Below are positions 11,224-36,887 of a DNA stretch of 64,000 bases, piece after piece. Within the stretch, counting starts at the first letter, position 1, and each line of letters opens with the position of its first letter. The notes beneath the pieces were generated by a model. It made no database searches. It was not told the DNA's origin and was given only the letters and a program-made list of their open reading frames with translations. The position numbers and the translations under genes were made by a program. Source of the DNA: Bacilli bacterium (GTDB taxonomy: Bacteria; Bacillota_I; Bacilli_A; RF39; UBA660); assembly GCA_017541445.1 (NCBI GenBank), contig JAFXZC010000006.1, positions 104,386-168,385 on the forward strand, written 5' to 3'.

Positions 11224-11245
11224 AAAAGGGATGATTTCTCATCCC
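11224..11245 (-). terminator. Terminator of the F1-like motor operon
   Basis: Stem GGGATGA/TCATCCC with loop GAAA followed by UUUU on the minus strand; the stop codon of the last gene is inside the stem. Confidence 0.85.
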
Positions 11246-11775
11246 TTGCCTTCTTTTTTCTTAATAAACTTATTTCTCTTAAGTACATTTAATAAACTAT
11301 TTAAAAATATATAAGTAGCATATAAGAATATGAATATACATAACATAATAAATAATACTACAACATACCAGCTACTAGATATTTCTACTATATATGAGTA
11401 AAAAATATTTTTAAAATATAACATAATAAATATTAATATAGCATTACTTATAGAAAATAATACTCTAAAAATATTACCACTAAAACTACATAAATTAAAC
11501 ATAATAACTGGTATTAAAAATAATACTACAGAATATAATGTATATGTCGTTATAAAAAACGACTCAATAATTAAGAAATAATAAATAAATAAAAATGATA
11601 ATGCAAGAATATCCAAAAATTTTAAATTCATAAATAAACCATAAAATGAAATATTACTATTAGTTATTGTCCTTTTGGATAATAACCATAACACTACCAT
11701 TAATAATATAGATAAAATAGGAAATATAATTAAATATGGTAATAAATAACTTAATTGATAAATTACCTCATTCAT
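11239..11775 (-). CDS. Five-helix membrane protein of the F1-like motor operon
   Basis: A 178-residue, very hydrophobic protein with about five membrane helices and a basic tail (KRNKFIKKKEGKG). It is the last gene of the ATPase operon, 3 nt after the epsilon-like gene and before a strong terminator, so it is made together with the motor. It does not show the Arg-bearing helix motif of F-ATPase subunit a (LRLF.N type); one Arg occurs in NIFRVLF but the surroundings do not match. It may be a membrane anchor or stator of the machine. The function is unknown. Confidence 0.7.
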   Translation of the reverse strand: MNEVIYQLSYLLPYLIIFPILSILLMVVLWLLSKRTITNSNISFYGLFMNLKFLDILALSFLFIYYFLIIESFFITTYTLYSVVLFLIPVIMFNLCSFSGNIFRVLFSISNAILIFIMLYFKNIFYSYIVEISSSWYVVVLFIMLCIFIFLYATYIFLNSLLNVLKRNKFIKKKEGKG

Positions 11776-11778
11776 AAA

Positions 11779-13373
<1,595 letters not shown>

Positions 13374-13378
13374 CTACT

Positions 13379-14167
13379 TCACCCCTTTATTATCCTATAA
13401 TTACTAATTTGTTTCTTGAACGCTTTAGAATTCTTTTCTTTTCTAGCAATTCTAATTTGTTCAGTTTCTAATTCTTCTATTTTCTTAATAGATTCTCTTG
13501 TTATACGTTCACGCATTACATTCTCAGATGCATAACTATTACTTTCAAGTACTTTTATTTGATAACAAATACCTAAAGCAATAATACTTGCTATTAAACC
13601 ATTAACATCTGTTTCAATAACATAATCTATACTTGTATCAATATCTTCTTTATCTTCATCAGTTAATTCCAATGGAAATAACCTCATAGTTTCATATGTT
13701 ATCTCACTAACAGAATGATAATAATTTAATAATACATTTATTTCTTTAACTTTCTCTTCTCTTATATATTCAGATACTATCTCGCTCATCTTAGCATATT
13801 CCTTAAAGAAATCGTCTTTCGCTATCTTTAATAATATCTTTTCATCATCTAGATGAGCTAACTTTCTTCCGATAACAATCTTATAAGATTCTTTATCGCT
13901 CATTATTGAACTTTGTAATTGATGATTAAAGTTACCACAGAAACCATAATCATTACCAATATAAATATTTAATATACTACCATTAGGATTGGCTTTTAAC
14001 ATTTTATCATCCATCTTTAAATTGGTATTATTTATTAATGAAGCCAATGTCCTACGTAGTTCTTTCTCAACTATTCTATCTTTAGCTGCTTGTCTTTTAG
14101 CTTTATCTACTCTTATCAAAGAGTGAAAATTCATAACCTTAACAATGTTCTTAACACTACTGGCCAT
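13379..14167 (-). CDS. atpG: F1-like ATPase gamma subunit (central shaft)
   Basis: A 262-residue protein with the gamma layout: an N-terminal helix (MASSVKNIVKVMN), a central Rossmann-like domain introduced by GNDYGFCGNFN (71-81; normal gamma has SDRGLCGGFN) and a long C-terminal helix with the spaced SxNVMRERITRESIKKIEELE region. It is somewhat shorter than usual (about 285). It overlaps the end of alpha by 11 nt and lies 5 nt before beta. It is expected to form the rotating shaft linking the alpha/beta hexamer to the c subunits. Confidence 0.88.
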   Translation of the reverse strand: MASSVKNIVKVMNFHSLIRVDKAKRQAAKDRIVEKELRRTLASLINNTNLKMDDKMLKANPNGSILNIYIGNDYGFCGNFNHQLQSSIMSDKESYKIVIGRKLAHLDDEKILLKIAKDDFFKEYAKMSEIVSEYIREEKVKEINVLLNYYHSVSEITYETMRLFPLELTDEDKEDIDTSIDYVIETDVNGLIASIIALGICYQIKVLESNSYASENVMRERITRESIKKIEELETEQIRIARKEKNSKAFKKQISNYRIIKG

Positions 14168-15752
14168 TTTTCTCTCCTATAAAGCTAAATCTTTCAATTA
14201 CTTGTTCTTTAGTCATAGGAGAAAATTTATATTGGTTCAAAGCATCCAAAATCTTTTTACCTTCAAATAATTTTTCTTGCAACTCTTTACTCATTTCATC
14301 AACATTTGCTAATTCATAAACTTCTCGAGTTTCAAGATAACTTAATAACTTATATCTTACTACAGCACCCAGAGCTTTCATTGCCGGATCTTGAACAGCA
14401 CCACCTAAACGCGATACTGAAAGACCATAATTAATAGCAGGCTTAATACCTTTTTGGAAGTTCTTACTAGATAGAACAATTTGTCCATCTGTAATTGAAA
14501 TAACGTTTGTAGAGATATAATCAGTAATATCTGCACCTTTTGTTTCAATTACTGGAAGTATTGTAATACTAGCACCACTCTTATATTGACAGCCTCTTTC
14601 AAGCAATCTTGAATGTGCGTAGAATATATCAGATGGATATGCATCACGTCCTGGAGACTTACCAGATATCAAACTTATTTCACGATATGCAAGAGCATGT
14701 CTTGATAAGTCATCAATTGTAACAAGAACATCAAATCCTTGTTTCATAAATGAATTGGCAACACTCATCGCAAAATAAGGTGTTAAGTAAATAACTGGAG
14801 GTAAATCATCATAGAACGCAGTTACAATAATTGTATACTGTGCAGCATCCCTCTTTAATAACTCATAATATATTTCTTTAACTTCTTTTTTAGTTTTACC
14901 AATAGCAACATACATACAAATAACATTTCGATCTTTTTGATTACAAATTGTATCCAAAAGTATTTGTGTTTTACCAGTCTTTTTATCACCAATAATTAAT
15001 TGTCTTTGACCTTTACCTATTGGATAAATTAAATCAATACCAGCAATACCTGTTTCTAATGGTCTCTTAACATCTGTACGATCCATTATAGGAGTAGGAA
15101 GTTCTTCTATTGGAATCATAGTAGTGTTAGAGAATTTCTTATTAGCAAGTTTATCATAACCAAACATATCTATTACTTTACCTAAACTCTCTGAAGAGAA
15201 TTCACCCATAAATTCCTCATTAGTTTGATAAACAACATCTCCAACACAAATCTTTTCAGTTTGAGAAACAACAGCAACAATAGCATGGTTAGTCTCTAGC
15301 TTAGTAATATAACCAATTGCCTTATTAGCAATATTAATTTTTTCATAGAAAGCAGCACCACTAATACCTACAACTTCAATAATAAAGTCTTTAACATTAG
15401 TAACTCTACCCACACCAAAAACATTCTCACCCGTTTGCATGTTTAAAATTTTCCTGTCAATTAACTTATCAACATAATTTAAACCTGCTGACTGAGATGC
15501 ATTAACTGCCGCAGGTGCTGGATTTGCACTAACCGCAGGTTCTGCTACAGGAGCAGATACCTCAACTGGTTTTTCTTCAGCAACAGCACTAGCTACTGGT
15601 CCTTCTACTTTATTTTCTTCCTCTATTTGTGTAGTATTTTCACCAGAAAAAGGTTTAACTTCTTCAACTGTATCAGTACTTTCAACATTATTGGAATTAA
15701 CCTCTGGTTCACTTACAGTCTCACTTAAAACTGCAGAATCTTTTTCTTCCAT
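14157..15752 (-). CDS. atpA: F1-like ATPase alpha subunit with N-terminal extension
   Basis: A 531-residue protein. From about residue 90 it is alpha-like: Walker A GDKKTGKT (255-262), YVAIGKTKKE, VLVTIDDLSRHA, SGKSPGRDAYPSDIFY and the arginine finger in SVSRLG (Arg448) that completes the catalytic sites on beta. The first 88 residues are an acidic then Pro/Ala/Val-rich, probably disordered tail that normal alpha lacks; there the N-terminus contacts subunit delta. The tail may be a tether to another component. The ATG follows AAGGAG. Confidence 0.92.
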   Translation of the reverse strand: MEEKDSAVLSETVSEPEVNSNNVESTDTVEEVKPFSGENTTQIEEENKVEGPVASAVAEEKPVEVSAPVAEPAVSANPAPAAVNASQSAGLNYVDKLIDRKILNMQTGENVFGVGRVTNVKDFIIEVVGISGAAFYEKINIANKAIGYITKLETNHAIVAVVSQTEKICVGDVVYQTNEEFMGEFSSESLGKVIDMFGYDKLANKKFSNTTMIPIEELPTPIMDRTDVKRPLETGIAGIDLIYPIGKGQRQLIIGDKKTGKTQILLDTICNQKDRNVICMYVAIGKTKKEVKEIYYELLKRDAAQYTIIVTAFYDDLPPVIYLTPYFAMSVANSFMKQGFDVLVTIDDLSRHALAYREISLISGKSPGRDAYPSDIFYAHSRLLERGCQYKSGASITILPVIETKGADITDYISTNVISITDGQIVLSSKNFQKGIKPAINYGLSVSRLGGAVQDPAMKALGAVVRYKLLSYLETREVYELANVDEMSKELQEKLFEGKKILDALNQYKFSPMTKEQVIERFSFIGEKNGQ

Positions 15753-15779: not shown

Positions 15780-16507
15780 TTAATTTAAACTATAATCGTA
15801 CATTTTATTCTTATATATAATCTTTATACCTTTATATACATTCTTATCATATATAGTCTTTATCCTATTGTCAATATAATCATAATTTTCTTTTTGATTT
15901 CCGACGTAAACATATATGATTGGATCACAAAACCCCATCTGACTATCTAGGTAATCAACAAAACTTTCAATTTCGAATTCATACCTTTCATTCATATAAT
16001 CATTATAAATCTTTTCATCAATATTTTTAATATTTTCTTGAATAGAATCTAGAAAACCTTCCTCGTCAGAGGTTAATATATTATAAATACCAACTTTATT
16101 TATATACTCTTTTACTTTAACTAATTGATTATATTCATTATAACCATTTCCATTAGCAATCATACTAGCAAATTTCTTTACTATATCTTCACTATTGAAG
16201 GAGAATTTACTATCTACTCTCTTAACTATTTCAAGCAAATTCTCTACTTCATAGTTATTATTATTATCAAGATATACTAATGTTCCAGATTTTCTGTTTT
16301 TATCATTAGATGTGTCCTCATTATTCTTTTCTTCTTCTATACTATTATTTTCTTTATCTTTATTTTGTTCTTCATCATATTGTTGTAACTTAAGAACAAA
16401 ATAACTTCTACCTTGTTCATTAATATTTTTGACTGTACTCTTTAATATAAAGAATATAACAACAGTCATAATTATTAATATAACAATTATTGCTATAATA
16501 GTTTCCA

Positions 16508-16508
<1 letters not shown>
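15780..16508 (-). CDS. Candidate b/delta-like peripheral stalk protein
   Basis: A 242-residue protein at the atpF-atpH position. One N-terminal membrane helix (2-23), a charged linker (about 40-75), a helical domain (about 85-185) and a C-terminal strand region ending VYKGIKIIYKNKMYDYSLN. That end resembles the close of delta (IGGxVIRxGDKVIDxSVRG). The architecture suggests one chain combining a membrane-anchored b with a delta cap, that is, the stator that holds the alpha/beta head. Similarity is weak and the call depends on gene order. Its ATG overlaps the c-subunit stop (TAATG). Confidence 0.6.
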
Positions 16509-16765
<257 letters not shown>

Positions 16766-18406
16766 CTATTCATCATAAAATTTATAACTAAAATTCAAAT
16801 TCAAATCATTAGCTCCACAATCTCCACCAGTGGTTTCTACACCTTCAGGAGATAATGTACAAAATAACATATTTGTTAAAGATATAGTATTTTCATAAGC
16901 AAGACCTCTGTCTTTCTCAAGTTCAAATGAACCTAAATAAGTACCATTTGAGTTAACATCTTTAGCAACTAAGTTTTGAGTAAATGTATACTCTTCAGTA
17001 CCATTATCAGAAGTTCCTTTAAGAACAACATTAGCAGTATTAAACTTGTAATATTGATCAACATCTATTTGATAATCTATCTTTATTTTTGTATGCCAAT
17101 CATAAGTATTACTACCAGGATTTTTTTCCATAAATGTCGTTTTAGATACTTTATTAACTTTAATTTCATAATTAATATCTTTAGTTCTTATTTCTACTTC
17201 ATCTTTAGTAACCTCTAACTCAGCACCAACTAATTGATAAACTAAAGAAATCTTATATGAAGTACCAGGTTTTCTATCCAATATTACATAAGAAGTTCCA
17301 TCTTTATCAAGAACTTTCTTTTCTTCATCATTAATTAGTAAATAAATACTTTGATATTCACTACTTGGATCGAAAACAGAATATCCAACAGTAATTGAAG
17401 TAGCATCTGCAGATACACTCTTTAATGCAACCCATCTTGAGAAATCATAGAATTTAGCAGCTGCTCTTGATAAACTGACATTTGTATTATCGTTTACTCC
17501 TCCAACACTCTCTGTCAAATTGTTAATACTCTTAATAACAGCATTTAAATACTCATCATAATAGTTATTAACATTATATTCTTCTTCGTCTTCATCATAT
17601 CCTCCGCCGCCGGAGCCACCTCCGCCGCCAGAACCACCAGATCCTCCACCATTACCAATTTGATTAACAGTTTCTGTTCCATCAATTATATCAGGATCAG
17701 TATTACCACTCAATTTAGTAACTTTACTAGGATCAAATTCATTTGTACTACCAATAATGTTTTTTAAATCAACTTTTTTATCATTAAATATCATTGTTTC
17801 ATTTGCAACATCAAAGTTTAAATTAGAACCATTTAATACAACTTGTGCAATAGTTTTAAAACTTAATAAGTTATTAGCAAATGATGGATTACCTTGTTTA
17901 TCCAAATCTATGATAACATATCCAGTTGTTTTTAAAACATCACTATCATTACTTACTATATTACTATCAACTATTAAATATTTTCTATCATCAAGTTTAA
18001 ATAGTTTAGTTGGAGAAGACTTAACTATTCTAGTCTCGCCTTCTACAACATTTACATCTCCACTACTTAATACTTGGTAACCTATACCATATAGATATAG
18101 ATTTGTATCATTTTCTTTATATACTACAGCATTCTTTCCAAGAGAATATTTATATGTTTCACCATCTTTTTTCTCATACATATAATATTTCTTGTCCATT
18201 TTTTGTGTTATGTATGCTTCTCCAGAAGTTAAAATATAATTTAAATCCTCATCATATAAAACACTACCTACTGCAACATCATATTTAGTTTTATCATAAG
18301 ATAAATACCTATAAATAAATATACCGAAAGTGACAATTACACCAATTACAAATACAGTTAATACTCCAAAAAGCTTAAGTGTATTTTTCTTTAATTTTCT
18401 TATCAT
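16766..18406 (-). CDS. Single-pass surface protein of the motor operon, at the subunit a position
   Basis: A 546-residue protein with a basic N-terminus, membrane helix (9-33), beta-rich membrane-proximal module (about 35-245), a Gly/Ser linker (about 250-269), a short acidic helical segment and two fibronectin type III-like domains (about 325-545). Its module resembles that of the 1982-residue neighbour: KLDDRKYLIVDSNIV here, KISDSKFMIVGNDIT there. It ends 12 nt before c, the slot of subunit a in atp operons, but is unrelated to a. It is predicted to lie outside the cell, anchored next to the motor. Confidence 0.8.
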   Translation of the reverse strand: MIRKLKKNTLKLFGVLTVFVIGVIVTFGIFIYRYLSYDKTKYDVAVGSVLYDEDLNYILTSGEAYITQKMDKKYYMYEKKDGETYKYSLGKNAVVYKENDTNLYLYGIGYQVLSSGDVNVVEGETRIVKSSPTKLFKLDDRKYLIVDSNIVSNDSDVLKTTGYVIIDLDKQGNPSFANNLLSFKTIAQVVLNGSNLNFDVANETMIFNDKKVDLKNIIGSTNEFDPSKVTKLSGNTDPDIIDGTETVNQIGNGGGSGGSGGGGGSGGGGYDEDEEEYNVNNYYDEYLNAVIKSINNLTESVGGVNDNTNVSLSRAAAKFYDFSRWVALKSVSADATSITVGYSVFDPSSEYQSIYLLINDEEKKVLDKDGTSYVILDRKPGTSYKISLVYQLVGAELEVTKDEVEIRTKDINYEIKVNKVSKTTFMEKNPGSNTYDWHTKIKIDYQIDVDQYYKFNTANVVLKGTSDNGTEEYTFTQNLVAKDVNSNGTYLGSFELEKDRGLAYENTISLTNMLFCTLSPEGVETTGGDCGANDLNLNFSYKFYDE

Positions 18407-18419: not shown

Positions 18420-21400
18420 CTACTTATTGACCGTTAGAATCGTTTCAACATTCGCGGTGACGACGCCATCATCATCCAGGAATTCCATAACAACTCTATA
18501 TGTATTTTTTGGAATTCTAACACCAACATTTAAAACGAAGTATGAAATATTATCATCTGTAATCCAATTTATACTAACTTCATCTAAGTTTTTAAATAAG
18601 TTTATACCAGTACTCTTTTCAGTATATAATGAAGCCCTAACTTTTCTTGCATTATGACTTCCATATAAATCGAAGAATGAAATTCTAACTTTCTTACTAT
18701 TTGAATCTTCTTCAATACTTGCAGATACACCTGAATAAGATAATGAACCAGTCAAGTTAAATTCTGTAGTAATAAAATCTTCTTCATAAACACCATCATT
18801 ATTTCTATCAGCATAGAACACAACTTTAGCAGAACAAATATCAGTCGAACTACAATTAATATTATTACCTAATTTCTCTCTATAACTAGGTCCTTCCATT
18901 GTAGATATAGAAATCAATTCGCTTTGTCCATTTTTAATCAAATATACAAAGAAATGATATCTTTTTCTAGCATCAGCATCAGCACGTCTATCTGAAAGAC
19001 CACTTTGAACCAATTCATTATTACCTGAATAGAATCCTTTGTATCCACCCATTGAACCAGCTTGATCCAACAATGTAACTAATAATTGAACATTTGAAGT
19101 TTGAGTATCTTCAACTAGTTTAACATTTACGAATGGTCTAGATAATATGAAATCAGTAACATTCGCATTTTTAACAGCATTCTTAGATAATACATGTTCA
19201 TGATTTTCAGAGTCATTATAATATGGATAAGCAAATACAACATAATTATCATCTGTAGTCATAGAATTATCAGGAGTAGTAGGATGTTCAGGATCACCTT
19301 GTATTCCACCATATGTAGGTGTTATATCAATATAAGTGACATTATCAGAACTCTTAAAGATTGTATTATCGGTAGTAGCATATGCATATTTAACCACTTC
19401 AATACCGTCAGCACGATTTCCATTTTCATCAATATAAGTAGTTCCTGGTACTCTTCTATAAACTTCAAATTTAATACCATCAAAGCCTTCCAAATATTGT
19501 AAATTATAAGTAACTTTTAAGAATCTATCATAATAATCATGAGATACACCCTCACCATAATCATAACTTGCTTTCATAGCAGTTATACCAGGGTTATCAG
19601 ATGTTTCAATAGTGTAACTTGGATATGTTCTATCAGCATCATACCAAGAACCATAAATTGATTCATCAAGGAAATTATAATCCAAATAATCAAAATCTTT
19701 TGGAGAAGCACCATCTTCAAATGAATACTTAAATATTATTCTATAAATAGCATCAACTTTGTCTAAACCATCAATAGTTATATTATTTAGTATTGTATTT
19801 TCACCATTTTCAGATACAAATAATTCATTTAACTCATTTACTTTAAATGAAGTATAAGCACATTCAAATCTAAAATCATATAAACTACAATTTTCATTTA
19901 CATTTGAGAAACCTTCACCTTCTACATATTTTTGAAGATAAACATAAGTTGTAATTGGTTTAGATGTACTAATAATAGGCTTAAATTTAAATCCACCTAT
20001 TCCATTATTTACATCAGAAGCGCTCAATGAAAGTGATGGTGTATCACCAATAAAATAATAATTACATGATGCACCAGGAATTAAATCACCAGTACTAGAA
20101 GAAATAACCTTACAATCACTTTGTTTATCAATAGTATAAGAGCCAAGTTTCTTAGGCATTAAAGCAACTGATACATTATTACTATTTTTACATACTAATC
20201 CTCTTGTAGTAACACTACAATTATTGAATTTTAAAGGATCTACACTAGTATCGTATTTAGAAGTAACTTGTAGATAATTTTGAGCACCTATTCCAATACT
20301 ATAATCAATATCACCATAGTACTTACCTCTATCAAATACATAACTTACAACACCATTATCATTTGCGGTTAAAGTATAACCTTCAGTTGGACTTATTTCG
20401 TTATCAAATCCAGCAATTTGAGTATCATACAATAATCTAATAGATAAAGTTATATCAACTTTTTTATTAGTATCATTTTCACTTATTAATTCACCAATAT
20501 CAGAATGATAAATCTTAAAGCCTGAATAATTAATTCCATTTACAGAAATTCTTTCAATATCATTTCTAGTCTTATATAAAGTAACTGTTTTATCTGGAAA
20601 ACCAGTTCTTGCACCAGTAAATTTCAATTCGTAAACAACAACTTTATCAGAATACCAATAACTATCATTTGCAGCAGATGTTAATAATACACTCAAATAA
20701 TTTCTAGTACCTGAATGATGTAATGTATATCTAGGAGTATAATCAACAAGACTTGTAATTGATTCATTATCAAAAATACTATCAAAATACCAGCCATCAA
20801 ACATCGAATAAGTTGTTATAGGACTAATTTGTGGATTACTATAGTTAACTTCTCTTAATTGAACTTTATAATATAATACTGGATATCCATTTTTCGTTTT
20901 ATTAAAATCACCATTTGTTGTATAAACAGTACCTGTAGCATGACGTTCTCCATCAAATGAAATACAATTTTCTGTTTCAGCACCATTTATCTTACATAAT
21001 GCAGTAACTTCTTCAGAAGTAATACCATTAGAAGTAATTCTATAATATAAAGATTGCTTTCCATTATCAACATAGATAGCTTCGTCAACATCCATAATGT
21101 CATATCCAAAAGTAACACCATCTGCATCACGTTTTGACAAATAAGCATATACAACAGGCATTTGTTTAGGAGGATTTTGAACATCTGTAGGAATAGCATC
21201 TAATACTTGTTCCTCATTTTGTCTTCTAATAGTCATTTGAATATTAAAGTTAAAATATCCACCTCTATAATAATGTAATTTATTTTGTAATTCTTCACTA
21301 GTTAAATCATCAAATAAATATGAAATACAACCAGTTGAGCCATCAATCATATTATTATTTATTAAATTATATGTTCCAACTGTTCCATTCTTAGTATATG

Positions 21401-24475: not shown

Positions 24476-27400
24476 TTTGTCTCATTATTTTTTAAATATT
24501 TTGCCAAAATCAAAATAGATAAAGCAATAAATCCAACTATAGATAATACTATAATTAACGCAGAAACAAATGTTACTTTGATAGATTCTTTACTTCTGTA
24601 AAATTCTATTAATCTCTCGTCTTTATCAATAATATTATCTACTGTTTCATCAAATGAATCAGCCATTTTTATTTCAGAAGTACTCTCAGCCGTTGGAACC
24701 TGATAAACATAATATTCATCAGATGCAGGATTATAAGCAATGCTATAAGTAGCATTCTTAGCAGGAATACCTCCTTCATATCTTTCTTCTCCAATAACAG
24801 TTTCTATTGGATGTTCATTTAATTTTCTAACTAAACTTTTAGCTTCTTCATAAGATTTATTTTCTTCAATATATTGATTACTATCTTTAGATAATTGATA
24901 GTATTCTCTAATATATTCACCTAAAGAAACATCTTTATTTGTTTCTTTACCAACAATATTACCATTTCTATAATTAAAAGCTACATAACTACCATCTTTA
25001 TATTCAACAAACATAATATTTGTATTATTACCAATAGTACTACTTATACTTTTAATATTAATATTTTTAAAGTTTTTAGGTAAAACAATTTGATCTTTTA
25101 AACTATGAATTTTACCATCAATTCCAAGATAAATCATATATTCTTTATCATTGTAATTATCAATTATGTATGAATCACTCACAGATTCAAGACCATTATC
25201 AACAACTTCAAGTTTATTATTTTTAACATATATTTTTTTATTAACAACTTGACCATCAATTGTAGAATATGAACCATAAGTTTTAATAACTTGGCCGGCA
25301 TATTCAAATTCATATAATGGAGTATCTTCTGCTAAAGTAAGATTTTCAAAATCATCAATCTTTGTTTTACCAGTTTTAATATTATAAATATTTTTATTAT
25401 CTAATAATATTTCATCTCCAAAAATATTCGTTGCATTGTTAATTTCAGTAGTTCTTTCTACTTCAGCTAACTTATAAACAACATTATTATATGCTCTAGA
25501 ACTAGTAGTAACCAATCCAGAATCAATATTATTATAACCATCATCTCCTGGTTGAATAGGTAATTCTGGAGCTTCAGAAGAATTATCTTCTTCTGAAGTA
25601 TCCTCAGTATTCTCTTCAATTATCTCTTCATAACCATTTGATTTCAATTCAGCATTAGTAATAACACTACCATCATCTAAATAATAATAATTATCATCAA
25701 TAGTTGTTGAACTATTAACTAAATCTTCAGCCTTAATAGAAATAACTTCTCTACCTGAATAATTACCAATTGTAATATCAAAATCAGATTCAAAATCATA
25801 ATAGAATGTATATGTTTGTTTATCAATAGAATACTCTACTCCATTAATTTCAAACCAACTTGAAGTAGCACTATCAATATCAAAGAATTCAACATTAATC
25901 TTATTTACATCAGATGCATAAACATTTACTCTTGGAATACCAGAATTAATACTGTTAAATTGAACTGCAGCAGATCCATATAATGGTAATCCAGTTTCAT
26001 TTGGTTTATGATACTCTTTTTTAATCCTATATTTTGTAGGGAATGATGTATAAATAGAACCATTTATATCCAACAAATCAGGATTAGGTATAGCAAGTAT
26101 TCCATCAGGATTTGGATTAAGATCTGTTAAACCATTCTTAATATGTGGGAAATATGTTGCATTATTATTAACAAATGTTCTATTATTTAATTCACTTAAA
26201 TCATAATCATAAGTACCATAAGTATTTTGAGTACTAACAGCATGAGTTAAATATCTACCTGTAGAAAGAACAGTATCATGTGCTAAATCATAACTATTTA
26301 TATTTGATTCTGGAACATTTGCTAATGAGTAAGAAACAACATTATAATTTGTTTCGTTTCCAGTAACTACACCAAGTACTGAATCTTTATTAATTTGAAT
26401 ATCTTTATAAACATAAGGATAATCAATATCTGCTTCAGCATATCTCCAATTACATATTGCACTATTTTGTGCAGCAGTTATTTTATTTTGAACTTCTGTA
26501 TCACTTGCAGTAACTAATGTTTTAATAGTTGAATTAGAAGCTGTACCTCTTAATATTGCATATGGTATTTGAATTAAAGTATTCAAATAATATTCACCAT
26601 ATTGTTCAGTATTAGCACCAGTACAATCATAAGTAATTGTTCTATAGTTGTATGCAGTTGCAGGACCTCTATCAATATAACACTTACTACCAGATAAATC
26701 ACCTTCAGCACATTCATATAGTTCAGTTTCTTTATTATAAGTAGCATTTTTAACTTGAATACAACGTGAACTATCATCTTGACTAGAAGGAGTTTGTCCA
26801 GAAGGACACTCATATTTTACTTGAGGATTTGAAACTGTAGATGATCTAGGATGATATTTATGATCATAAGTTCTATTAGTTACGTAATGTGATGTAGCTA
26901 AGTAATCACCATTATGGTAACCAGGCTCTTTAGCACCACCATTTATAAATCCACAATATGATATATCACGACAATAAACAGAAACGGAGATTGAATTACT
27001 ATAAATTCTTGAACTAGCTTCTGTTGTACCAACAACAGAATCCTTCTCCCATCCACCTATTAAGCCTCCTGCTAAAGTTGTCTCAGAAACAACAACTGAG
27101 TTAGCAACATAGTTACCATAAACTTTATATACATAAGAATCGTTTTGAATTTCAGTCTTATTTGGAATAAATCCAATAATACCACCAACATATCCTTTTG
27201 CATCAGTACCTGTTGAAACAACTACAGCAGTGGAAATATTATCATAAACATTTCCTTTTCTACTATTCATTCCTCCAAGAATACCACCTACGTAAGTTTT
27301 ACCTACAACTAAAGTATCTTTTGTATTACTACCAACAGTCTCAGATGTTACTTGAGTATTATGTATAGAAGTCCAACCCATAACACCAGCAACTCCACCA

Positions 27401-30400
27401 GCATATTCATTTTTAGAAATAATTGTATTAGAAACAACAACAGCTTCAGATGTTCCATCACCAACTTGTCCAGTAATACCACCAGCACGGTTAGCAGCCT
27501 GAACTTTATTAAATGATGAAGACAATTTAGATATTGAACTACTTACACCAGTAACGCCACCAGCACAATTTCCTGCAGCAGTAATATTTAAATTAATTGA
27601 TCTTAAATTTGAACTACTATTACTATTAGTAGAACCAAATACACCACCGACATTAGAACCATTACCTTTTACTACATTCATAGTAGTATTTGAATCAATT
27701 CCAGAATATATATCACTTGGAACAGTAGAATCAGTTGGGAACGGAGTATTCTTACCAGATACAAAGTAACCATTACCAGATCCAGCTCCAACTGCTCCAC
27801 CAACGTAACTATTACCAAATGAATATATACCTTCAACAGCTATATTATAGTCATATGTACGAGCTTTACCATTTTCGGCATAACCCATATATCCTCCAAC
27901 ATAATCACCAGAGCCTACAATATAACCATTTTTAATAGTAATATTATTCTTATCTTTTATTTGGCTATAACCTATTAAACCACCAACATATTTTTTACCA
28001 TTGATATTTAAGTTAGAAGCAACAATATCTCTTATTTCATTACTTCTATTAGTTCCTATAATACCAACTCTTTCAACTTTCGGTGCATCAATTTTTATAT
28101 TTGTAAATGTTATAGGTACTTTACTATCAGAAGGTTTTAATAAACCATCAAGAGTTTTTATAATACCAAAGTTAGTACCAGAAGCACTTGATGTTGTACT
28201 TAATAATACATTTTCAAAGTCAACATCATACATTGAAACCATAACATTATCTATTAATCCAGTAGCAGAACCCATATTTTCAATTTTAATATTCATTAAT
28301 TTTGGATTTCTTTCATTTGAAGTATTAGCGAATTGTCTAACACCTCGTAACTTGTTAAATGTTAAACCACTCTTAACAGTACAAGAACTATGATCAAAAC
28401 AACCGAAATTAACATCATTCATAACTAAATAGTTTTGAGCACGACCAGCTACTATATTATTCCAATCATCTTTATTATAAATCTTACCATAGAAAGTAAT
28501 ATCTAATAAAATTGGAACAGAATAAGTTTTATCAGCATTATTTTTTACATAATGAATAGTATTTATTTGATAACTATCATAGTAATATTTTGGTATCGCT
28601 GTAATACTTACCATACTATCACCATTTGCTTCATCGTTTATTACACTTGGTTGTCCTATTTGCTCTAATCCATCAAATTCAAGAACAGTAATTCCTAAAC
28701 CATTTGGATTATGTAATTTTAATTGTATATCCGCAGCATCAGCCAAATACGATGGCTCATTAGAAGATAAAGGAACATAAGAATCATAAGTTCCATCAGG
28801 CTTTCTTTGACCATAACCTTTTTTATATGTTACAACCAAATCCTTAATAGTAAACATTTCTACGAAACGAATTTCCAAATCACCTAAAGGCTTATCAGTA
28901 CTATAACCTTCTTCACCTTCGTAGAAACCTTGATTAGGTAATGGTTCACCTGTTGCTAAATTTCTAATCATAGGAATATAACCAAATCTAACAACCTCAT
29001 TAGGTTTATCTGCATCAACAAATTTACCTACTCTAAATCCTTTAGCAAAATTTCCACCTTCTACACACCTAGAACTACCATTAGGATCAACATCACAATT
29101 ATAATCGTAATTTAATACCCAACTCTCATTAGATAAACCAATTCTATTAGCAAATACTAGTGGATTTATCATATCTTCTTGAGTTAATAAAGTTTCACCA
29201 GAAGTATTTTTTGTATAAACACTATTAATACTTTGTTTATCCCAAGCATAGTTACCATTCATGGCAATTAATGAACCAGATGTTCTATGAACTTCTTTAC
29301 TATCAGTACTTGATGTTAAAATATCACCTAAAGATAATGACTTAGCAATTTTATTTGAAGGAATTACAACATCATTTACCTTACCAACAATTGATCCCAT
29401 ATAGTTTGTTCCAACTATATTAATTTTAGAAATACAACTCTTAATATAACCACCATTAGTACCAGCAATACCACCAGCATTAACGAATACAGTAGATATA
29501 TCACCAGTAGTATAAACATCTTCAATATTACCAAATTCTAGGAATCCTACTATACCACCTACACCAGCAACATCACCAGGTCCATAAGTAGTAACTCCAT
29601 CAACAACACTATATCTCTCAATATTAACACTTAAATATCTAACAAATACATTGTTAATAACAAGATTCTTACCATAACCTACAATACCACCTAAATTCAA
29701 AGTAGAAGTATTGTTCATATGAACTAAATTATTAACATCTATTACTGGTTTACCACCAGAATAAACAACATCTCCATCATCATTTTTTCTGTATTTTACT
29801 AAGCCAAATTTATATACAGAAGAATTCATAATGAATCCACCATTACTATAGCCAACAATACCACCGACATACAATTGTCCACTTCCACCAGCTCCAACTG
29901 TAACATCAGACATATGAACATTATCAACAATAGCACTGCTACCCATAATGCACATTAAGCCGCCATATTTTCCATAATTAGTTCCAGCATAATTATTTGA
30001 AACATAATTATTAACGAATCCATCAATTGTTAAATTCTTTATAGAACCATTTACAGTACCAAATAGACAGTTATCAACCTCTAATCCAGAAATTACATGG
30101 CCTCCACCATCTATCATTCCTTCTACCTTTTCAATAAATGGTCTTTTATCATCACCAGAAAATCTACATTTCTCATCACTACAATCTAGATCTTTAGTTA
30201 ATAAGAAATTAATAGTATTATTTGCAATACCAGTTTTTATATTTTCAAGTGAATCAACACTCATATATAAAGACATAGGTAATAATATATTTAGTGATCC
30301 ATTATGACAATCTAATGCACCACCATTTGCAATAGAACCATTTTGTCTACCTGTTCCACCACAAGACTTACTTGTACTAGAATCAAATCTTGAGTTACCA

Positions 30401-33400
30401 TCATCGTTATAATATAAATCTGTTAAAATATAATCATTTTTATATACAAAAGGATCTTTTATATATAAGTATACAAAAGTAATACCATCTGAGTTTGGAG
30501 TACCACCCCATTCTACAGCTACATTAGATAAATCTGTAGAAGTCTCATTAAAGTTAATATCTCTAATTAAAGCACCTACTATTCTCTTACCAATAGGAGC
30601 TCTTACTGATAATACAACTTGAGCATTATATTTTGATTTATAAGTAGTACTATTTGTGAAACCAGTAGCAAAGTCAGCTTTATTTTGAGTATAAGACTCA
30701 ACAGCCAACACCTCAATTACTCCATCATCTACCTTAACATTATCAACACTTATAAAGTCTTGAGGAGGCATACAACTTGGCATAACTAAATGAGGGAATG
30801 TACTTGATCTCCATGCTTCATTAGTTAAGAAAACACCATGAGTATTTAAGATTTCATCTAAGAACATTTTATCTTTAAAATATAGTTTTGTAATAGGTTT
30901 AGAAATAGCACCACTATAATTTTTAGTAGATACATTATAAATATTAACTATATTACTACCAGATGCTTTAGGAATACTACTATCTCTAGTAGGATAAATA
31001 TTCGCAATAACCGCATCTTGAGAAGAAGAACCTTCTGGTAATGTTAATCTACTAATTGCATCATGTTCGGCATCAAAATTAGTATTATATCTATCGTTAC
31101 TATATCCTAATATATCACCATAAGAAATAATATTTCTAACAATAGCATTAGATGAAGAACCTAATATTAAAGCACCAGTATAAGAATTATCTACTCTTTT
31201 TTGAACATAACTCCTACATTCACTACTTAAAATAATACAACTTCCACCTTCAGAAATAGGATTTCCTTCATCATCAGTTATAACTTCATCATCAGCATCT
31301 ACACATTGTCCTAATTCATTTAATTTGTATGTATGTTTCCACTCTAAGCAAAATCTTGCTGGATTAGAAGTATTATCGGAGAATTCAACTTCATTATCAT
31401 ATATCTTAATATTTACTAATGAATAAATATTTTCAATTACTGCATTTAATGAAGCACTAGTTGCAATTATAGCAAGACCTCTTCCCTCACCTGTTGTTGC
31501 AATAGGAGCAACCATATCTTCACCATAAATATATCCATTTCTAATAGTACCTTGGTTAACAGCGTTAGAAACGTGTGGATTTAATACAATCGCACTATTT
31601 GTATGGAAATATAAAGGATCTTTTAATTTAACAACAAATCCATCAATTAAACCATAATTAATTTGAGCAACCAAAGCAGAATAAGTTGTTCTAAACGAAT
31701 CAGATACAACTGTATTAGTTTCATCATATCCATCTTTATACACTATAGTTTTATTAGCACCATCTCTAATAATTTCTTCAACACCCATAGGTGTTCCATT
31801 CTCTAAATCATAAGAGAATTCAACGTGATGATCTAATAACGATAAATCAGGATCAGCATTTATCTTTTCTTCGTCTATAGTATCATTAACAGTAGATACC
31901 ATTAAATTCAATACTTGACCATAATTTGAATTAGTTAATCCATGGAAACCACTTAATAACTTATTATGATTAAATATTATATGTAAATCTAGGTTCTTAA
32001 CTCTAGAACCACCACCAAGTGAATTAAATAAATAACTCATTCCACTACCAGTAGCCATAACAGCTTTATGACCTTGGAAATCAATTGAACCTTGGAAAGT
32101 ACCTGAATATGCACTTGAATTAGATTTATTTGTAAAATCCAAATCCGCAATAACAATATAATTACCATATGCATGCATATTAATAAATTCTTCAGGAGTA
32201 GCTATTGACCTAGACTCAATTTCAGTTGAGAAAGTATATGAATAAATATCATATAATCTGAACATTTCTTTCATTATATTACTATTTTCTTTATCAACAA
32301 CATATTTATCATTTATCGCTTCACTGAAATCATAACCATTTTCATGAGTTGCAACAGTTGTAATTCTAATTTCATATGACTTATCTCTAACTACTTCGCT
32401 TTGAACAAATGCATTAACAAAATCATAATCAAATAGTAAAGATGCAAAATCATTTTCAAAACATTCAGAAACAACAGAATCAGTACATGTTTCTAATATT
32501 CTTCTTCTTAAAGATTTAACTTCATTTCCATTAATAAAGAATCTTACATAGTAATCATACTTATACCAATCATTAAAGTACATCTCACCAGAACCACGAG
32601 TCTCTCCACTGATAATCTCACTTGTACCATCTAAAACACCAGAATGTGCTTCTTCCTCATTAGGATCTACTGAAGGTAAATACTCATCAAATAAAGCTTC
32701 ACATTCTTCGCTAGTCATACCATCAAGGCAGTATTTTTTATCAAGACCAGTATCTATGAAGGCAACGAAATAATCAGGTAAATCGCCACCATAATTAATA
32801 GAATCAGTTGTTCCAAAACTTGTATCATCTGGACTTAAAGGTTTACCAAATTCAATCTTCAAGTCTCTTAATATTATATCTGTATTATATCTATTAGGGT
32901 TACTATCTTGAACATAGAATGTTATATATCCAGTACTATCTAATCTATCAAAAGAATAAACATGTCTATTAGCAAATTCTTCACTATGAACAACGCCACG
33001 ACTATCAACAGTTGTAATACTAGAAATAAGATTACCAGTACCAGTAGCTCCTGCTGCTGCACAAGTTTTATAATTATATCCATTATTAATACAGAATGAT
33101 TGTTGACTTAAATTTAAAGTCGTCTCTCTTTGTACATCAACATTGAAAGAAATAGTAAATGGTTTACCAACTAATTCAGGAATATAAATAGCATATCCAT
33201 ATTGTGAATTCTTATTAGAACCTAATTTAACTTCATTAGAGTCAACAAGTAATTCTTTTCTATCATATGCATTAGAATCTGCACTTTGACTCTTCCATCT
33301 TGTATTATTTCTAATATCAAATCTATTAATATGATCTGGTTCATCATGATCTGAACTATCATTCCAATACAATCTCTCTAAATCATATGAAGCATTATCA

Positions 33401-36105
33401 ATTAATTTATTTAAATTAATAATACCTGATGTTCCAAGAACATGGAACTCATTAGCATAAACATCCTTCGCATAATCTTTTCCATCATAACCAACATTAT
33501 ATGCAGTTGCATTAAATGTAAATACATAATCAGAAAGATCTTTATTTAAAGAACTAATTGTAAGTCTTTCATATAAACCATCTTCAGCACTACAACTTCT
33601 AACAGTATTAAGTGTCTTAGAATAATAAACATCATCTCCATGTTTAACATCCAAAGATACAAATGATTGACCATATTTATCAGCAATAACAGCTTCATCA
33701 GGGTCTTCAACACAAACATCAAAATCAACATAACCAGCTGCTTTATAAGCATTTTTTATTCTTACTGTAGCTTCTTTCTTTAAAGTTGTGAAATCAGCAT
33801 TCAATACGCTATGATTTAAAACATACTGTTCTTGCGTTCCAGAAGTAAATGTCGGCAATATTTCAATAGTATAATCCGTCCTAGAATTCAAAATTTTATC
33901 CATCGATCCATCTTTATTAAAGGAAGCAGGAACCGAAGTAAGATTATTCAATTCATATTTTGAAACATAAAAATTTTCAGTATAAACAGTAGAACCATTT
34001 GCCGTTTCAGAATGAAGAACATATTTTTTAGCTTTCTTATCAAATATCTTTATATTAACGTTAGTATCCATCAAATCAAACAACTGATCAGAAAGATTAA
34101 CAAAACTAGCAGTAAAGCTTACATCACTTGCAGTAACAACCTTATCTTCAACTCTTATTAAAACTGTACCTAAAGAAGCGATATCACCAGTTGTAATTGA
34201 AAATTCTTTATTCATTAAATAATTTGGAACTACAACACCATCTGCAACATAATCACAATAAATCCTAATATAATAACGAGTTAAAATATCTAAGTTATTT
34301 AATGTAATCTTCGTATCAAATTCATTTTTTCTTTCAGGATCATCAAAAGAACCAGAAATAACTTCTCTTTCTTGACCATTCTTTTCAACATATACTTTAT
34401 ATCTAAATCTATAACCATCAGCTGCTTGTTTGAAAGTTACCTCGTCTTTATTAATAATCTTGACATCAATAATTCTCTTAGTAAAGTCAGTAGCACTATT
34501 TTCACCAGCCATCGCCAGAGTCGCAATTGGAGGAGTTTGTAATGTTTTTACATTCTTCTTTGTACCATTAACAACCGGCAGTTCATATCCAGTCGGATCT
34601 TTAACTACTAAATTCATATCATAATAAGTATTAGAAGTTAAAACATCTTTTGTATCAAAATCAATAGCATTATTCTTAACTATCTTTGCTAATTGAGATC
34701 TTGAGAAAATTAATGAAGTAACTTTTCCATCAGCTTTATTTGTTAAATCAACTGAAATAGAACTAATACCATATAATACTTCATCACCAGCAGGGTTACT
34801 TATATTTATATTATTCCATAAAATAGATCTAATTGATGGAATAGGATCATTCCAAGTGAATGAAACAGGATTTAAAGTTGATCTATCTTTTGTCTTTAAA
34901 GGAAATTCATATGGTTCACCAAAATCATGTAATTCAATACCATTAATAGTTATACGGAATTTACCAGTTTCCTTACTCTTTCCTTGGCCTCTATCCCTGT
35001 TAATATCTCCTTTTTCATTTTTATACTCATAAACAACTCTCATACCATAATTAGAATCAGGATGTAGTCCAGAAACTACTTGAGCACCAGACGAACTATA
35101 TGACTTAGTTGGAGCTGGATTAGTAGCACCCTCTTTATAGAATGATAATGTTGGAGCTTTTGTAATTCTCTTAGCAGGGTCATATACTTCTATATCAAAT
35201 CTTACAGAATAAACACCAACTACCAAATTAGTAATATGAACTTCAGGGTCAACATATTTCTCTTCAACATCTTTAGGATTATATCTTTCTGTTTGAATTA
35301 TTTGACCTCTTTTTTTCAAAGTATCTTTACTCTTATTTTTATTTTTATCGTTTTCACCTTCACCACCATCACCATTAGGATCTACAGCTTTATCTGGATC
35401 TGGTGCAGAAGCATCAATAGATTGAATTCCCATTAATAATATGAAATCTCCATACTTATAAGAACCATCGCCAAGTTCAATTAAATCAGTTTCATTAATA
35501 TTAGGAATTTCTCTATATATAAATTGATTATTACCATCAAGGAAATAATATCTAATATAATGATCACCAAAATATATATAAGAATGAACAGGTATTTCAT
35601 ATGGATGTGTCTCAGTATTAATAGTCAATTTTACTAAGTTAATATAAATACCACTATTTAATTCCAAGAAATTATAAGTTAAATCATCTATTTGCATCAA
35701 ACTATTACCATTATATATAACAGCATTAGATATAACAGTATCAACTTTAACATCTGATTTAACAAAATCAGTATCAACATACTTACCTAATTCACTTTGA
35801 ATATATAAAGTAGAATTATCATCAGATACAATAGGATAATCTAAAGAAATACTTTTTTTAGATGATTCACCAATAAAATATCTTTGATTACTTAAATATA
35901 TCTTTTGTGATAGCTTAACAGGAACTACAGTTACTTCATCACTATCAGCAGTTACACCTCCTGTTAAATTTGAAGATACAGTATCATCATTAAATACAAA
36001 CGCATCACTTTGCGTTTCATAATAAACACTAAACCTATTAATATAAACAAATATAGTTAAAATTATAAAAACTAACAAAGTTAATGGAACTATCGCTTTC
36101 TTCAT
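24457..36105 (-). CDS. Giant surface protein (3882 residues) anchored at both ends
   Basis: A membrane helix at 4-23 is followed by the shared beta-rich module (about 28-235) and a polar linker (about 236-262). Then come Fn3-like domains (about 285-870) and a jelly-roll domain resembling carbohydrate-binding modules (about 970-1095, ILRDLKIEFGKPLSP). Next are beta-helix segments with GLUG-type repeats (VGGIVGYSNGG, VGGLIGYSQ, AGGVAGVMGW, VGGIIGFIPN; about 1300-1500 and 2000-3000), further beta domains, and a second membrane helix near 3848-3868 with a basic tail. Both ends should be cytoplasmic, so about 3800 residues form one extracellular loop. Likely a binding or force-bearing surface protein. 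A GAAGGGAG site precedes the ATG. Confidence 0.85.
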   Translation of the reverse strand: MKKAIVPLTLLVFIILTIFVYINRFSVYYETQSDAFVFNDDTVSSNLTGGVTADSDEVTVVPVKLSQKIYLSNQRYFIGESSKKSISLDYPIVSDDNSTLYIQSELGKYVDTDFVKSDVKVDTVISNAVIYNGNSLMQIDDLTYNFLELNSGIYINLVKLTINTETHPYEIPVHSYIYFGDHYIRYYFLDGNNQFIYREIPNINETDLIELGDGSYKYGDFILLMGIQSIDASAPDPDKAVDPNGDGGEGENDKNKNKSKDTLKKRGQIIQTERYNPKDVEEKYVDPEVHITNLVVGVYSVRFDIEVYDPAKRITKAPTLSFYKEGATNPAPTKSYSSSGAQVVSGLHPDSNYGMRVVYEYKNEKGDINRDRGQGKSKETGKFRITINGIELHDFGEPYEFPLKTKDRSTLNPVSFTWNDPIPSIRSILWNNINISNPAGDEVLYGISSISVDLTNKADGKVTSLIFSRSQLAKIVKNNAIDFDTKDVLTSNTYYDMNLVVKDPTGYELPVVNGTKKNVKTLQTPPIATLAMAGENSATDFTKRIIDVKIINKDEVTFKQAADGYRFRYKVYVEKNGQEREVISGSFDDPERKNEFDTKITLNNLDILTRYYIRIYCDYVADGVVVPNYLMNKEFSITTGDIASLGTVLIRVEDKVVTASDVSFTASFVNLSDQLFDLMDTNVNIKIFDKKAKKYVLHSETANGSTVYTENFYVSKYELNNLTSVPASFNKDGSMDKILNSRTDYTIEILPTFTSGTQEQYVLNHSVLNADFTTLKKEATVRIKNAYKAAGYVDFDVCVEDPDEAVIADKYGQSFVSLDVKHGDDVYYSKTLNTVRSCSAEDGLYERLTISSLNKDLSDYVFTFNATAYNVGYDGKDYAKDVYANEFHVLGTSGIINLNKLIDNASYDLERLYWNDSSDHDEPDHINRFDIRNNTRWKSQSADSNAYDRKELLVDSNEVKLGSNKNSQYGYAIYIPELVGKPFTISFNVDVQRETTLNLSQQSFCINNGYNYKTCAAAGATGTGNLISSITTVDSRGVVHSEEFANRHVYSFDRLDSTGYITFYVQDSNPNRYNTDIILRDLKIEFGKPLSPDDTSFGTTDSINYGGDLPDYFVAFIDTGLDKKYCLDGMTSEECEALFDEYLPSVDPNEEEAHSGVLDGTSEIISGETRGSGEMYFNDWYKYDYYVRFFINGNEVKSLRRRILETCTDSVVSECFENDFASLLFDYDFVNAFVQSEVVRDKSYEIRITTVATHENGYDFSEAINDKYVVDKENSNIMKEMFRLYDIYSYTFSTEIESRSIATPEEFINMHAYGNYIVIADLDFTNKSNSSAYSGTFQGSIDFQGHKAVMATGSGMSYLFNSLGGGSRVKNLDLHIIFNHNKLLSGFHGLTNSNYGQVLNLMVSTVNDTIDEEKINADPDLSLLDHHVEFSYDLENGTPMGVEEIIRDGANKTIVYKDGYDETNTVVSDSFRTTYSALVAQINYGLIDGFVVKLKDPLYFHTNSAIVLNPHVSNAVNQGTIRNGYIYGEDMVAPIATTGEGRGLAIIATSASLNAVIENIYSLVNIKIYDNEVEFSDNTSNPARFCLEWKHTYKLNELGQCVDADDEVITDDEGNPISEGGSCIILSSECRSYVQKRVDNSYTGALILGSSSNAIVRNIISYGDILGYSNDRYNTNFDAEHDAISRLTLPEGSSSQDAVIANIYPTRDSSIPKASGSNIVNIYNVSTKNYSGAISKPITKLYFKDKMFLDEILNTHGVFLTNEAWRSSTFPHLVMPSCMPPQDFISVDNVKVDDGVIEVLAVESYTQNKADFATGFTNSTTYKSKYNAQVVLSVRAPIGKRIVGALIRDINFNETSTDLSNVAVEWGGTPNSDGITFVYLYIKDPFVYKNDYILTDLYYNDDGNSRFDSSTSKSCGGTGRQNGSIANGGALDCHNGSLNILLPMSLYMSVDSLENIKTGIANNTINFLLTKDLDCSDEKCRFSGDDKRPFIEKVEGMIDGGGHVISGLEVDNCLFGTVNGSIKNLTIDGFVNNYVSNNYAGTNYGKYGGLMCIMGSSAIVDNVHMSDVTVGAGGSGQLYVGGIVGYSNGGFIMNSSVYKFGLVKYRKNDDGDVVYSGGKPVIDVNNLVHMNNTSTLNLGGIVGYGKNLVINNVFVRYLSVNIERYSVVDGVTTYGPGDVAGVGGIVGFLEFGNIEDVYTTGDISTVFVNAGGIAGTNGGYIKSCISKINIVGTNYMGSIVGKVNDVVIPSNKIAKSLSLGDILTSSTDSKEVHRTSGSLIAMNGNYAWDKQSINSVYTKNTSGETLLTQEDMINPLVFANRIGLSNESWVLNYDYNCDVDPNGSSRCVEGGNFAKGFRVGKFVDADKPNEVVRFGYIPMIRNLATGEPLPNQGFYEGEEGYSTDKPLGDLEIRFVEMFTIKDLVVTYKKGYGQRKPDGTYDSYVPLSSNEPSYLADAADIQLKLHNPNGLGITVLEFDGLEQIGQPSVINDEANGDSMVSITAIPKYYYDSYQINTIHYVKNNADKTYSVPILLDITFYGKIYNKDDWNNIVAGRAQNYLVMNDVNFGCFDHSSCTVKSGLTFNKLRGVRQFANTSNERNPKLMNIKIENMGSATGLIDNVMVSMYDVDFENVLLSTTSSASGTNFGIIKTLDGLLKPSDSKVPITFTNIKIDAPKVERVGIIGTNRSNEIRDIVASNLNINGKKYVGGLIGYSQIKDKNNITIKNGYIVGSGDYVGGYMGYAENGKARTYDYNIAVEGIYSFGNSYVGGAVGAGSGNGYFVSGKNTPFPTDSTVPSDIYSGIDSNTTMNVVKGNGSNVGGVFGSTNSNSSSNLRSINLNITAAGNCAGGVTGVSSSISKLSSSFNKVQAANRAGGITGQVGDGTSEAVVVSNTIISKNEYAGGVAGVMGWTSIHNTQVTSETVGSNTKDTLVVGKTYVGGILGGMNSRKGNVYDNISTAVVVSTGTDAKGYVGGIIGFIPNKTEIQNDSYVYKVYGNYVANSVVVSETTLAGGLIGGWEKDSVVGTTEASSRIYSNSISVSVYCRDISYCGFINGGAKEPGYHNGDYLATSHYVTNRTYDHKYHPRSSTVSNPQVKYECPSGQTPSSQDDSSRCIQVKNATYNKETELYECAEGDLSGSKCYIDRGPATAYNYRTITYDCTGANTEQYGEYYLNTLIQIPYAILRGTASNSTIKTLVTASDTEVQNKITAAQNSAICNWRYAEADIDYPYVYKDIQINKDSVLGVVTGNETNYNVVSYSLANVPESNINSYDLAHDTVLSTGRYLTHAVSTQNTYGTYDYDLSELNNRTFVNNNATYFPHIKNGLTDLNPNPDGILAIPNPDLLDINGSIYTSFPTKYRIKKEYHKPNETGLPLYGSAAVQFNSINSGIPRVNVYASDVNKINVEFFDIDSATSSWFEINGVEYSIDKQTYTFYYDFESDFDITIGNYSGREVISIKAEDLVNSSTTIDDNYYYLDDGSVITNAELKSNGYEEIIEENTEDTSEEDNSSEAPELPIQPGDDGYNNIDSGLVTTSSRAYNNVVYKLAEVERTTEINNATNIFGDEILLDNKNIYNIKTGKTKIDDFENLTLAEDTPLYEFEYAGQVIKTYGSYSTIDGQVVNKKIYVKNNKLEVVDNGLESVSDSYIIDNYNDKEYMIYLGIDGKIHSLKDQIVLPKNFKNINIKSISSTIGNNTNIMFVEYKDGSYVAFNYRNGNIVGKETNKDVSLGEYIREYYQLSKDSNQYIEENKSYEEAKSLVRKLNEHPIETVIGEERYEGGIPAKNATYSIAYNPASDEYYVYQVPTAESTSEIKMADSFDETVDNIIDKDERLIEFYRSKESIKVTFVSALIIVLSIVGFIALSILILAKYLKNNETKIKEGK

Positions 36106-36134
36106 AAAAAAGCTCCCTTCTATTTTTTAAATAT

Positions 36135-36887
36135 TTATTTCAAATTACTTAACTTATCAACATCTTTAATTAGCAAAGCTGAACTATTAGAAAAATCAAC
36201 GCTATCATGAGATAAATTTACTTTAAAATCCTTATCAACAGCATAAGCATCTACCATAACATTTTTATAAACCTTAGATTCTTTCTTACTATAATCAAAT
36301 ATTTCTAAATCGCCTCTATATTGACAATCAACAAATGACATAGCAGGAATAACTACTTCATTTTCTCCAAAAACAATCTTAGTTTCTCTAACAAAGAAAT
36401 AAACATTATTACCATCATATAAGAAACCATTTCTTAATTCATAATCTTTTACTTCAGTATTAGATAAAGATAATTGATTATTTTCCATATAAATCATAGA
36501 AAAATAATTAATTTTATATTGAACAACATTAAATGCAGGATAAACAACAGACATAGTACTAGGGAAAATAACACTATCTTCACCAGTTAAATATAAAGGT
36601 TCTCTACCTAGTTCAAAAGAACCACCATTTAGTTCTAAATTAGTAATATTATTTTTTCTATTTAAAGTAATTGTTCCGTTAAAAACAAATCTTTCTCCTC
36701 CAATATAAGTATAAACTTCCTTATTTCTTATAGAATAACGTTCTATTTCTTTCTTTGCATAATGAGAAGACAGAATAACAACAATTACAATAATCACCGT
36801 AATTACAGTAAACAAAAAGAAAGGAGCTATCTTATTAAACTTCTTTTCTAAATCCTTAATATTAAACTTCTTGGCATCATTTTTCAT
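36135..36887 (-). CDS. Stand-alone membrane-proximal module protein of the motor locus
   Basis: A 250-residue protein: a charged N-terminal tail, a membrane helix (21-41) and a beta-rich domain to the end. Its size and pattern (GNNVYFFVRETKIVFGENEV, then DLEIFDY) resemble the first 250 residues of the 3882-, 1982- and 546-residue proteins, but it has no linker or ectodomain. It is the first gene of the locus, 29 nt upstream of the giant gene, with a good promoter in front. It may form or nucleate a ring made by the shared modules; that is inference. Confidence 0.72.
   Translation of the reverse strand: MKNDAKKFNIKDLEKKFNKIAPFFLFTVITVIIVIVVILSSHYAKKEIERYSIRNKEVYTYIGGERFVFNGTITLNRKNNITNLELNGGSFELGREPLYLTGEDSVIFPSTMSVVYPAFNVVQYKINYFSMIYMENNQLSLSNTEVKDYELRNGFLYDGNNVYFFVRETKIVFGENEVVIPAMSFVDCQYRGDLEIFDYSKKESKVYKNVMVDAYAVDKDFKVNLSHDSVDFSNSSALLIKDVDKLSNLK

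Follow-up and report, generated by a model that had tools for sequence, protein, structure and literature searches.

In mycoplasmas, F1-like ATPases have been connected to surface proteins in two settings: the Type 3 F1-like X0 ATPase is required for the function of the MIB-MIP system, by a mechanism that is still unsettled, and the Type 2 ATPase is part of the gliding machinery of Mycoplasma mobile (PMC12994834). Both clusters contain a protein with 12 transmembrane (TM) helices, and a comparison of their non-F1 proteins with subunits a, b and c, and of protein 2 with delta, detected no similarity (Beven 2012; PMC3369863). These ATPases pose the question of what replaces Fo when F1 works with surface proteins. 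Here we analyze a locus in a 64-kb stretch of the genome of an uncultured Bacilli bacterium (contig JAFXZC010000006.1, positions 104,386 to 168,385; hereafter, the window) that combines an F1-like ATPase with giant surface proteins and in which subunit c and a predicted b-delta fusion are still recognizable, so that structural work and comparisons to an ordinary Fo can be brought to bear on this question. We consider it probable that the locus encodes a non-pumping, stator-held rotary F-type ATPase that spends ATP not on ions but on moving giant surface proteins that likely bind glycans, because the F1 motifs are kept, the carboxylate of c is gone, subunit a was not found and the surface genes co-occur with the F1 part.

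The locus consists of eleven genes on the minus strand (translation table 11), with gaps of at most 88 bases or overlaps between neighbors, T250 being the first and A178 the last in transcription order (Table 1). A preliminary description of this stretch listed surface proteins of 546, 1982, 3882 and 250 residues (S546, S1982, S3882 and T250) preceding c, a b/delta-like protein, alpha, gamma, beta and epsilon in the classical atp order on one strand, and all of these genes are in place; the b/delta-like protein (b242) is refined here to a predicted b-delta fusion, whereas the name epsilon rests on position and a weak profile match. The likeness to canonical F1Fo thus covers homologs of alpha, beta, gamma, c and b/delta, the order of these genes with the epsilon-like one last, and the catalytic motifs, but the locus lacks subunit a and the c carboxylate, has b and delta in a predicted fusion and a short epsilon-like protein, and adds the four surface proteins and the membrane protein A178. 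Subunit a was not seen anywhere in the window, as noted before, and the locus contains no separate delta gene. The window beta narrowly exceeds the cut-off of the AtpD model TIGR01039 (468.7 against 462.85 bits), whereas alpha and gamma fall below those of TIGR00962 (389.2 against 484.45) and TIGR01146 (45.2 against 194.45). As a candidate for the N-ATPase (alternate F1F0) family, the window beta was rejected (TIGR03305, 412.1 bits against a cut-off of 752).

With the mycoplasma Type 3 clusters associated with MIB-MIP, the locus shares an F1-like part without a recognizable ion channel, the association with surface proteins and the operon organization (PMC12994834), but it keeps c and b-delta and belongs to a different beta clade. 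The mycoplasma clusters have features of their own, namely the 12-TM protein, a small cytoplasmic protein and a protein of about 87 kDa with two C-terminal TM helices; by hydropathy, the locus encodes no counterpart of the first or the last of these, and it does encode c. The window beta also stays below the cut-off of the mycoplasma Type 2/3 family model NF045934 (418.5 against 570 bits). In a tree of 57 beta sequences, the locus family forms one group (100/100) separate from both the mycoplasma-type and the canonical beta; given midpoint rooting and long branches, this tree neither supports nor contradicts a sister relation to the mycoplasma types. The Type 2 G1-ATPase of M. mobile is similar in being an F1-derived motor proposed to drive extracellular legs (PMC12994834). 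It lacks a c subunit, and its beta carries an N-terminal extension involved in a twin motor (PMC12994834); in some members of the locus family the extensions are on alpha, not on beta. Thus, the locus resembles the mycoplasma systems in outline but, by the features tested, is a member of neither family, and the beta model score, the separate tree group and the different parts bear out the earlier impression that this combination differs from the known mycoplasma clusters. Our literature search found no published report of this gene system.

To trace the locus in relatives, we searched with the window gamma, which matched 759 proteins with E values up to 0.001 (best 120 listed), and used an alignment of this gamma with 23 of the listed homologs (A1) to find loci in a one-per-species genome collection; all genome-wide presence and absence counts below refer to the genomes of these relatives rather than to the genome of the window itself. 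The same block, which the preliminary description had proposed to look for in related genomes, was recovered as 42 loci, mostly in metagenome-assembled genomes titled Bacilli, Bacillales, Bacillota/Firmicutes, Mollicutes/Tenericutes, Erysipelotrichaceae or Clostridia. Using profiles derived from the window and locus sequences, we matched gamma in 42, beta in 40, alpha, the epsilon-like protein and A178 in 39 each, b242 in 37 and c in 36 of these loci, and among the surface proteins S546 in 36, T250 in 35 and S1982 in 34. On the locus maps, missing parts fall at contig ends, the exceptions being S3882 and, in three loci (L002, L003 and L007), T250, which there precedes S3882, the order also seen in the window (extended stretches L119, L120 and L126). 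Two layouts recur: T250-S3882-S1982-S546-c...A178 in the window and these three loci, and S1982-S546-c...A178-T250, with S3882 next in many. Recurrence of the parts in 42 loci places the arrangement beyond chance and confirms that the observation in the window is real and that the system is conserved.

T250, S546 and S1982 are consistently present with the F1 part, and S3882 is found in most genomes. It was matched in 27 of the 42 fetched loci; among the other 15, L007 carries it in the extended stretch, and in 9 of the 12 searched genomes without S3882 at the locus it is encoded elsewhere (G014 counted as positive; G005 and G032 left out), the search being negative in G008, G017 and G039. Paralogs of S3882 beside one F1 part are suggested by two full-length copies in G015 and by five other genomes (G033, G035, G036, G040 and G042) in which several long matches lie next to one another or on different contigs.

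The link between the F1 part and the surface proteins, posited in the preliminary description, is borne out by synteny and co-occurrence. Among 60 genomes of one order, strong S546 matches are found in exactly the five that carry gamma (G002, G047, G070, G079 and G085) and in none of the other 55, save for a weak 41-residue match in G100. Two of the five have disrupted blocks. In G070, S1982, S546 and S3882 are on one contig and the genes from c to T250 on another, with no S546 in the 1.8 kb read past c on the latter. In G047, gamma is relocated behind A178 and S1982-S546-T250 is on a different contig; the two fetched stretches of this genome, to which the search was confined, showed no S3882. 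This co-occurrence, together with the split and reordered blocks, shows that the parts travel together even where the operon is broken.

The catalytic sites, described earlier as intact, were compared across the window and the loci with patterns written for this analysis. The P-loop and the GER motif of beta are present in 40 of 40 sequences and the strict Walker B pattern in 29; the SR[LVI]GG arginine-finger motif of alpha is present in 37 of 37 and its P-loop pattern in 34. As judged by these patterns, the F1 catalytic motifs are retained. Mean pairwise identity within the loci is 0.70 for beta (n=40), 0.67 for the alpha core and 0.53 for gamma, compared to 0.69 for a canonical control set of beta (n=22). 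Alpha carries tails of variable length that are mostly acidic and rich in Glu, Val, Pro and Ser; they are N-terminal in the window (95 aa, acidic, rich in Val, Ala, Ser and Pro), L002 and L007, and C-terminal, with lengths up to 644 aa, among L011, L014-L017, L021, L024 and L025. Such a tail could possibly serve as a spring, a tether or a cytoskeletal contact.

The ion-binding side of the machine is altered throughout the family. The lack of the c carboxylate, first noted in the window, extends to all 37 sequences, in which the respective column holds T (17), A (17), S (2) or M (1), whereas it is Glu in 17 aligned canonical c sequences (read by eye, from 17 of 18 canonical operons fetched). 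Stray acidic residues were seen one residue before this column (Asp, L011), at the extreme C-terminus (Asp, L023) and close to the start of helix 1 (L013, L035 and L036), and helix 2 contains no acidic residue in any of the 119 scorable further c homologs (120 listed of 1286). Nevertheless, c is the most conserved protein measured, with a mean pairwise identity of 0.74 (n=37) against 0.46 for canonical c (n=17). Selection appears to keep c tightly for a purpose other than ion binding.

A subunit a gene elsewhere in the genome, strictly co-occurring with the locus, was named in the preliminary description as the finding that would count against its reading. None of the 42 locus-bearing genomes matched PF00119, the control being positive in 9 of 14, and the reading stands. 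In two orders sampled more broadly, gamma and PF00119 were detected in 9 and 2 (one over the cut-off) of 146 genomes and in 7 and 4 of 95 genomes, respectively, with no overlap, and most genomes of both samples have neither. The locus is therefore accessory in lineages largely without F1Fo. PF00006 matches over the cut-off, examined in 23 of the 42 genomes, are the alpha/beta pair of the locus, joined in seven genomes (titled Clostridia or Clostridium) by a lone 85-103-bit match; only G034 has a second, V-type-like pair, beside a V-type I subunit match (contig G034:C16) that is the single one in the 42 genomes, and H+-PPase had no match over the cut-off in the 23.

Several predictions point to a stator. 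The b242 profile aligned with canonical delta (hhalign P 1.6e-5 over 27 columns), its AF2 model has a mean pLDDT of 81 and a pTM of 0.52, and the first 30 rows of the Foldseek output are all ATP synthase entries, with weak individual E-values. Thus, we predict that b242 fuses b and delta into one stator protein, the peripheral stalk; alpha3beta3 would then have a stator against which gamma and the c-ring could turn. For the epsilon-like protein, which has 79 aa compared to about 130 aa in canonical epsilon, the match to canonical epsilon is weak (hhalign P 0.057) but colinear over 57 columns, four non-epsilon controls giving 0.36-0.77. A178 has no detectable similarity to canonical subunit a (hhalign probability 6.9%) and is a candidate membrane stator.

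By hydropathy, each of the four surface proteins begins with a hydrophobic helix near the N-terminus, and every one of the 12 complete S3882 proteins read, with that of the window among them, has such a helix near both ends. The window S3882 has no Pfam match, and the window S1982 has no fn3 match; in their families, GLUG repeats were found in 9 of 12 S3882 members and fn3 in 11 of 16 S1982 members. The S3882 family profile matched two Protein Data Bank (PDB) chains, the GLUG-bearing 3n6z (see below) and 1gui (laminarinase 16A, a carbohydrate-binding module; E 3.6e-4), and these matches suggest glycan binding by S3882. Three of the 12 S3882 family members contain an ALK/LTK-type Gly-rich domain, with E values of 3.1e-45 and 7.8e-42 in the orthologs L117 and L118; this domain is otherwise known from animal receptors.

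Taken together, these results support the interpretation in the preliminary description, namely that ATP-driven rotation or conformational change acts on extracellular proteins without ion flow; the rotation and the action on the surface proteins are what we infer. In the mechanism that we propose, gamma and the c-ring would rotate against the b-delta stator, powered by ATP, with A178 probably replacing subunit a as the membrane anchor, and torque from gamma and the ring would cross the membrane and reach the single-TM surface proteins in one of two ways: a surface TM helix could be seated inside the ring or lie along its side and be carried round by it, or the ring could distort the domains next to the membrane. 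S3882, anchored at both ends, would act as an end effector that can be exchanged and that takes hold of glycans, whether to move, to adhere or to capture. We more tentatively entertain, as a possibility that we would not bet on, a third, separate class of F-type machines in non-mycoplasma Bacillota, in which an ion-dead Fo ring serves as a transmembrane drive shaft that turns or cranks single-TM proteins, one motor serving interchangeable glycan-gripping S3882 heads. If true, rotary membrane motors would include one that has a c-ring yet conducts no ions. More generally, the system would show that selection can retain a c-ring for a role other than ion transport. There is also a consequence for annotation: public data label members of the family as 'F0F1 ATP synthase' or as 'F-type H+-transporting ATPase', names that would wrongly credit these uncultured gut bacteria with an ATP synthase and call for correction.

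The rival explanation that survives best, although we deem it unlikely, is mechanical capture and release instead of a motor for motility or adhesion: ATP would drive changes that return a ligand-bound surface complex to its starting state, as has been proposed for MIB-MIP. Besides this mycoplasma precedent, the multiple copies of S3882 in some genomes are reminiscent of the multiplied MIB-MIP pairs in one mycoplasma, and the best PDB match of the S3882 family profile is 3n6z (E 5.1e-7, profile positions 1618-1746), a chain named putative immunoglobulin A1 protease by its depositors. However, the surface proteins matched no protease or immunoglobulin-binding family in Pfam, and the GLUG repeats of L115 (1635-1660) lie within the stretch matched by 3n6z; we therefore ascribe this match to repeats in common rather than to a protease domain.

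Export or assembly comes second and is likewise improbable: the F1 part would energize secretion of the giant proteins in the manner of FliI/FliJ, and these proteins would then be passive. F1-like ATPases and FliI/SctN export ATPases share a fold, giant proteins need export, and translocation was considered for the mycoplasma types (Beven 2012; PMC3369863). Against this, the window beta scores 217.3 bits with the FliI/SctN model, far from the cut-off of 619.1, and the N-terminal helices of all four surface proteins would suit ordinary Sec export. FliI/SctN is a homohexamer without a c subunit or a b-delta stalk, and the conserved c and b-delta stalk of the locus have no known role in FliI-type export.

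A cryptic ion pump or ATP synthase, with A178 as an unrecognized subunit a and ions taking another path, seems to us very unlikely. A178 is indeed multi-TM and encoded in the same operon, and 26 of its 35 sequences carry an R/K-D/E pair; beta exceeds the AtpD cut-off, and the genomes have no other recognized rotary pump, G034 excepted. However, the carboxylate is missing from all 37 c sequences, A178 shows no detectable similarity to subunit a and its charge pair is absent from the window copy, and in the two orders sampled most genomes lack a match to both subunit a and this gamma, so that such a pump is not required. Finally, a decaying F1Fo relic beside unrelated surface genes, for which the loss of subunit a and of the ion site and the broken frames in a few loci (L031, L040 and L042) could be cited, is hardly credible given that c varies less than its canonical counterparts do, the catalytic motifs are kept, and S546 co-occurs with gamma even where loci are split.

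Table 1 Genes of the locus in transcription order, with positions in the window
Gene	Position	Strand	Product and features
T250	36135..36887	-	250 aa; one N-terminal TM helix and membrane-proximal domain, predicted extracellular
S3882	24457..36105	-	3882 aa giant surface protein; TM helices at residues 4-22 and 3849-3867
S1982	18420..24368	-	1982 aa large surface protein; N-terminal TM, membrane-proximal domain, Gly-rich linker
S546	16766..18406	-	546 aa; N-terminal TM, membrane-proximal beta domain, Gly/Ser linker, two Fn3-like domains
Subunit c homolog	16508..16762	-	PF00137 E 3.4e-7 (Pfam); without ion-binding carboxylate
b242, predicted b-delta fusion	15780..16508	-	242 aa; one TM/stalk helix, helical bundle, delta-like C-terminal beta part
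Alpha-like subunit	14157..15752	-	531 aa; PF00006 (Pfam); 95-aa N-terminal tail
Gamma subunit (central shaft)	13379..14167	-	262 aa; PF00231 E 4.8e-21 (Pfam)
Beta-like catalytic subunit	12015..13373	-	452 aa; PF00006 (Pfam)
Epsilon-like small protein	11779..12018	-	79 aa; assigned by position and weak profile match
A178	11239..11775	-	178 aa membrane protein, five hydrophobic segments (hydropathy)

The PF00006 matches of the alpha/beta pair have E values of 1.5e-71 and 1.1e-69 (Pfam). Subunit c is 84 aa long from the listed TTG start and 81 aa from the ATG at 16753, the ATG being the better fit to the relatives. Downstream of the locus, the window encodes a protein with one TM helix (9581-11152) and a weak beta-propeller match (PF16755, below cut-off), for which no counterpart was matched in the 42 relative loci. 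Farther away, at 2395-6045, a Radical SAM/SPASM protein adjoins a BspA-type leucine-rich repeat protein with a zinc ribbon.
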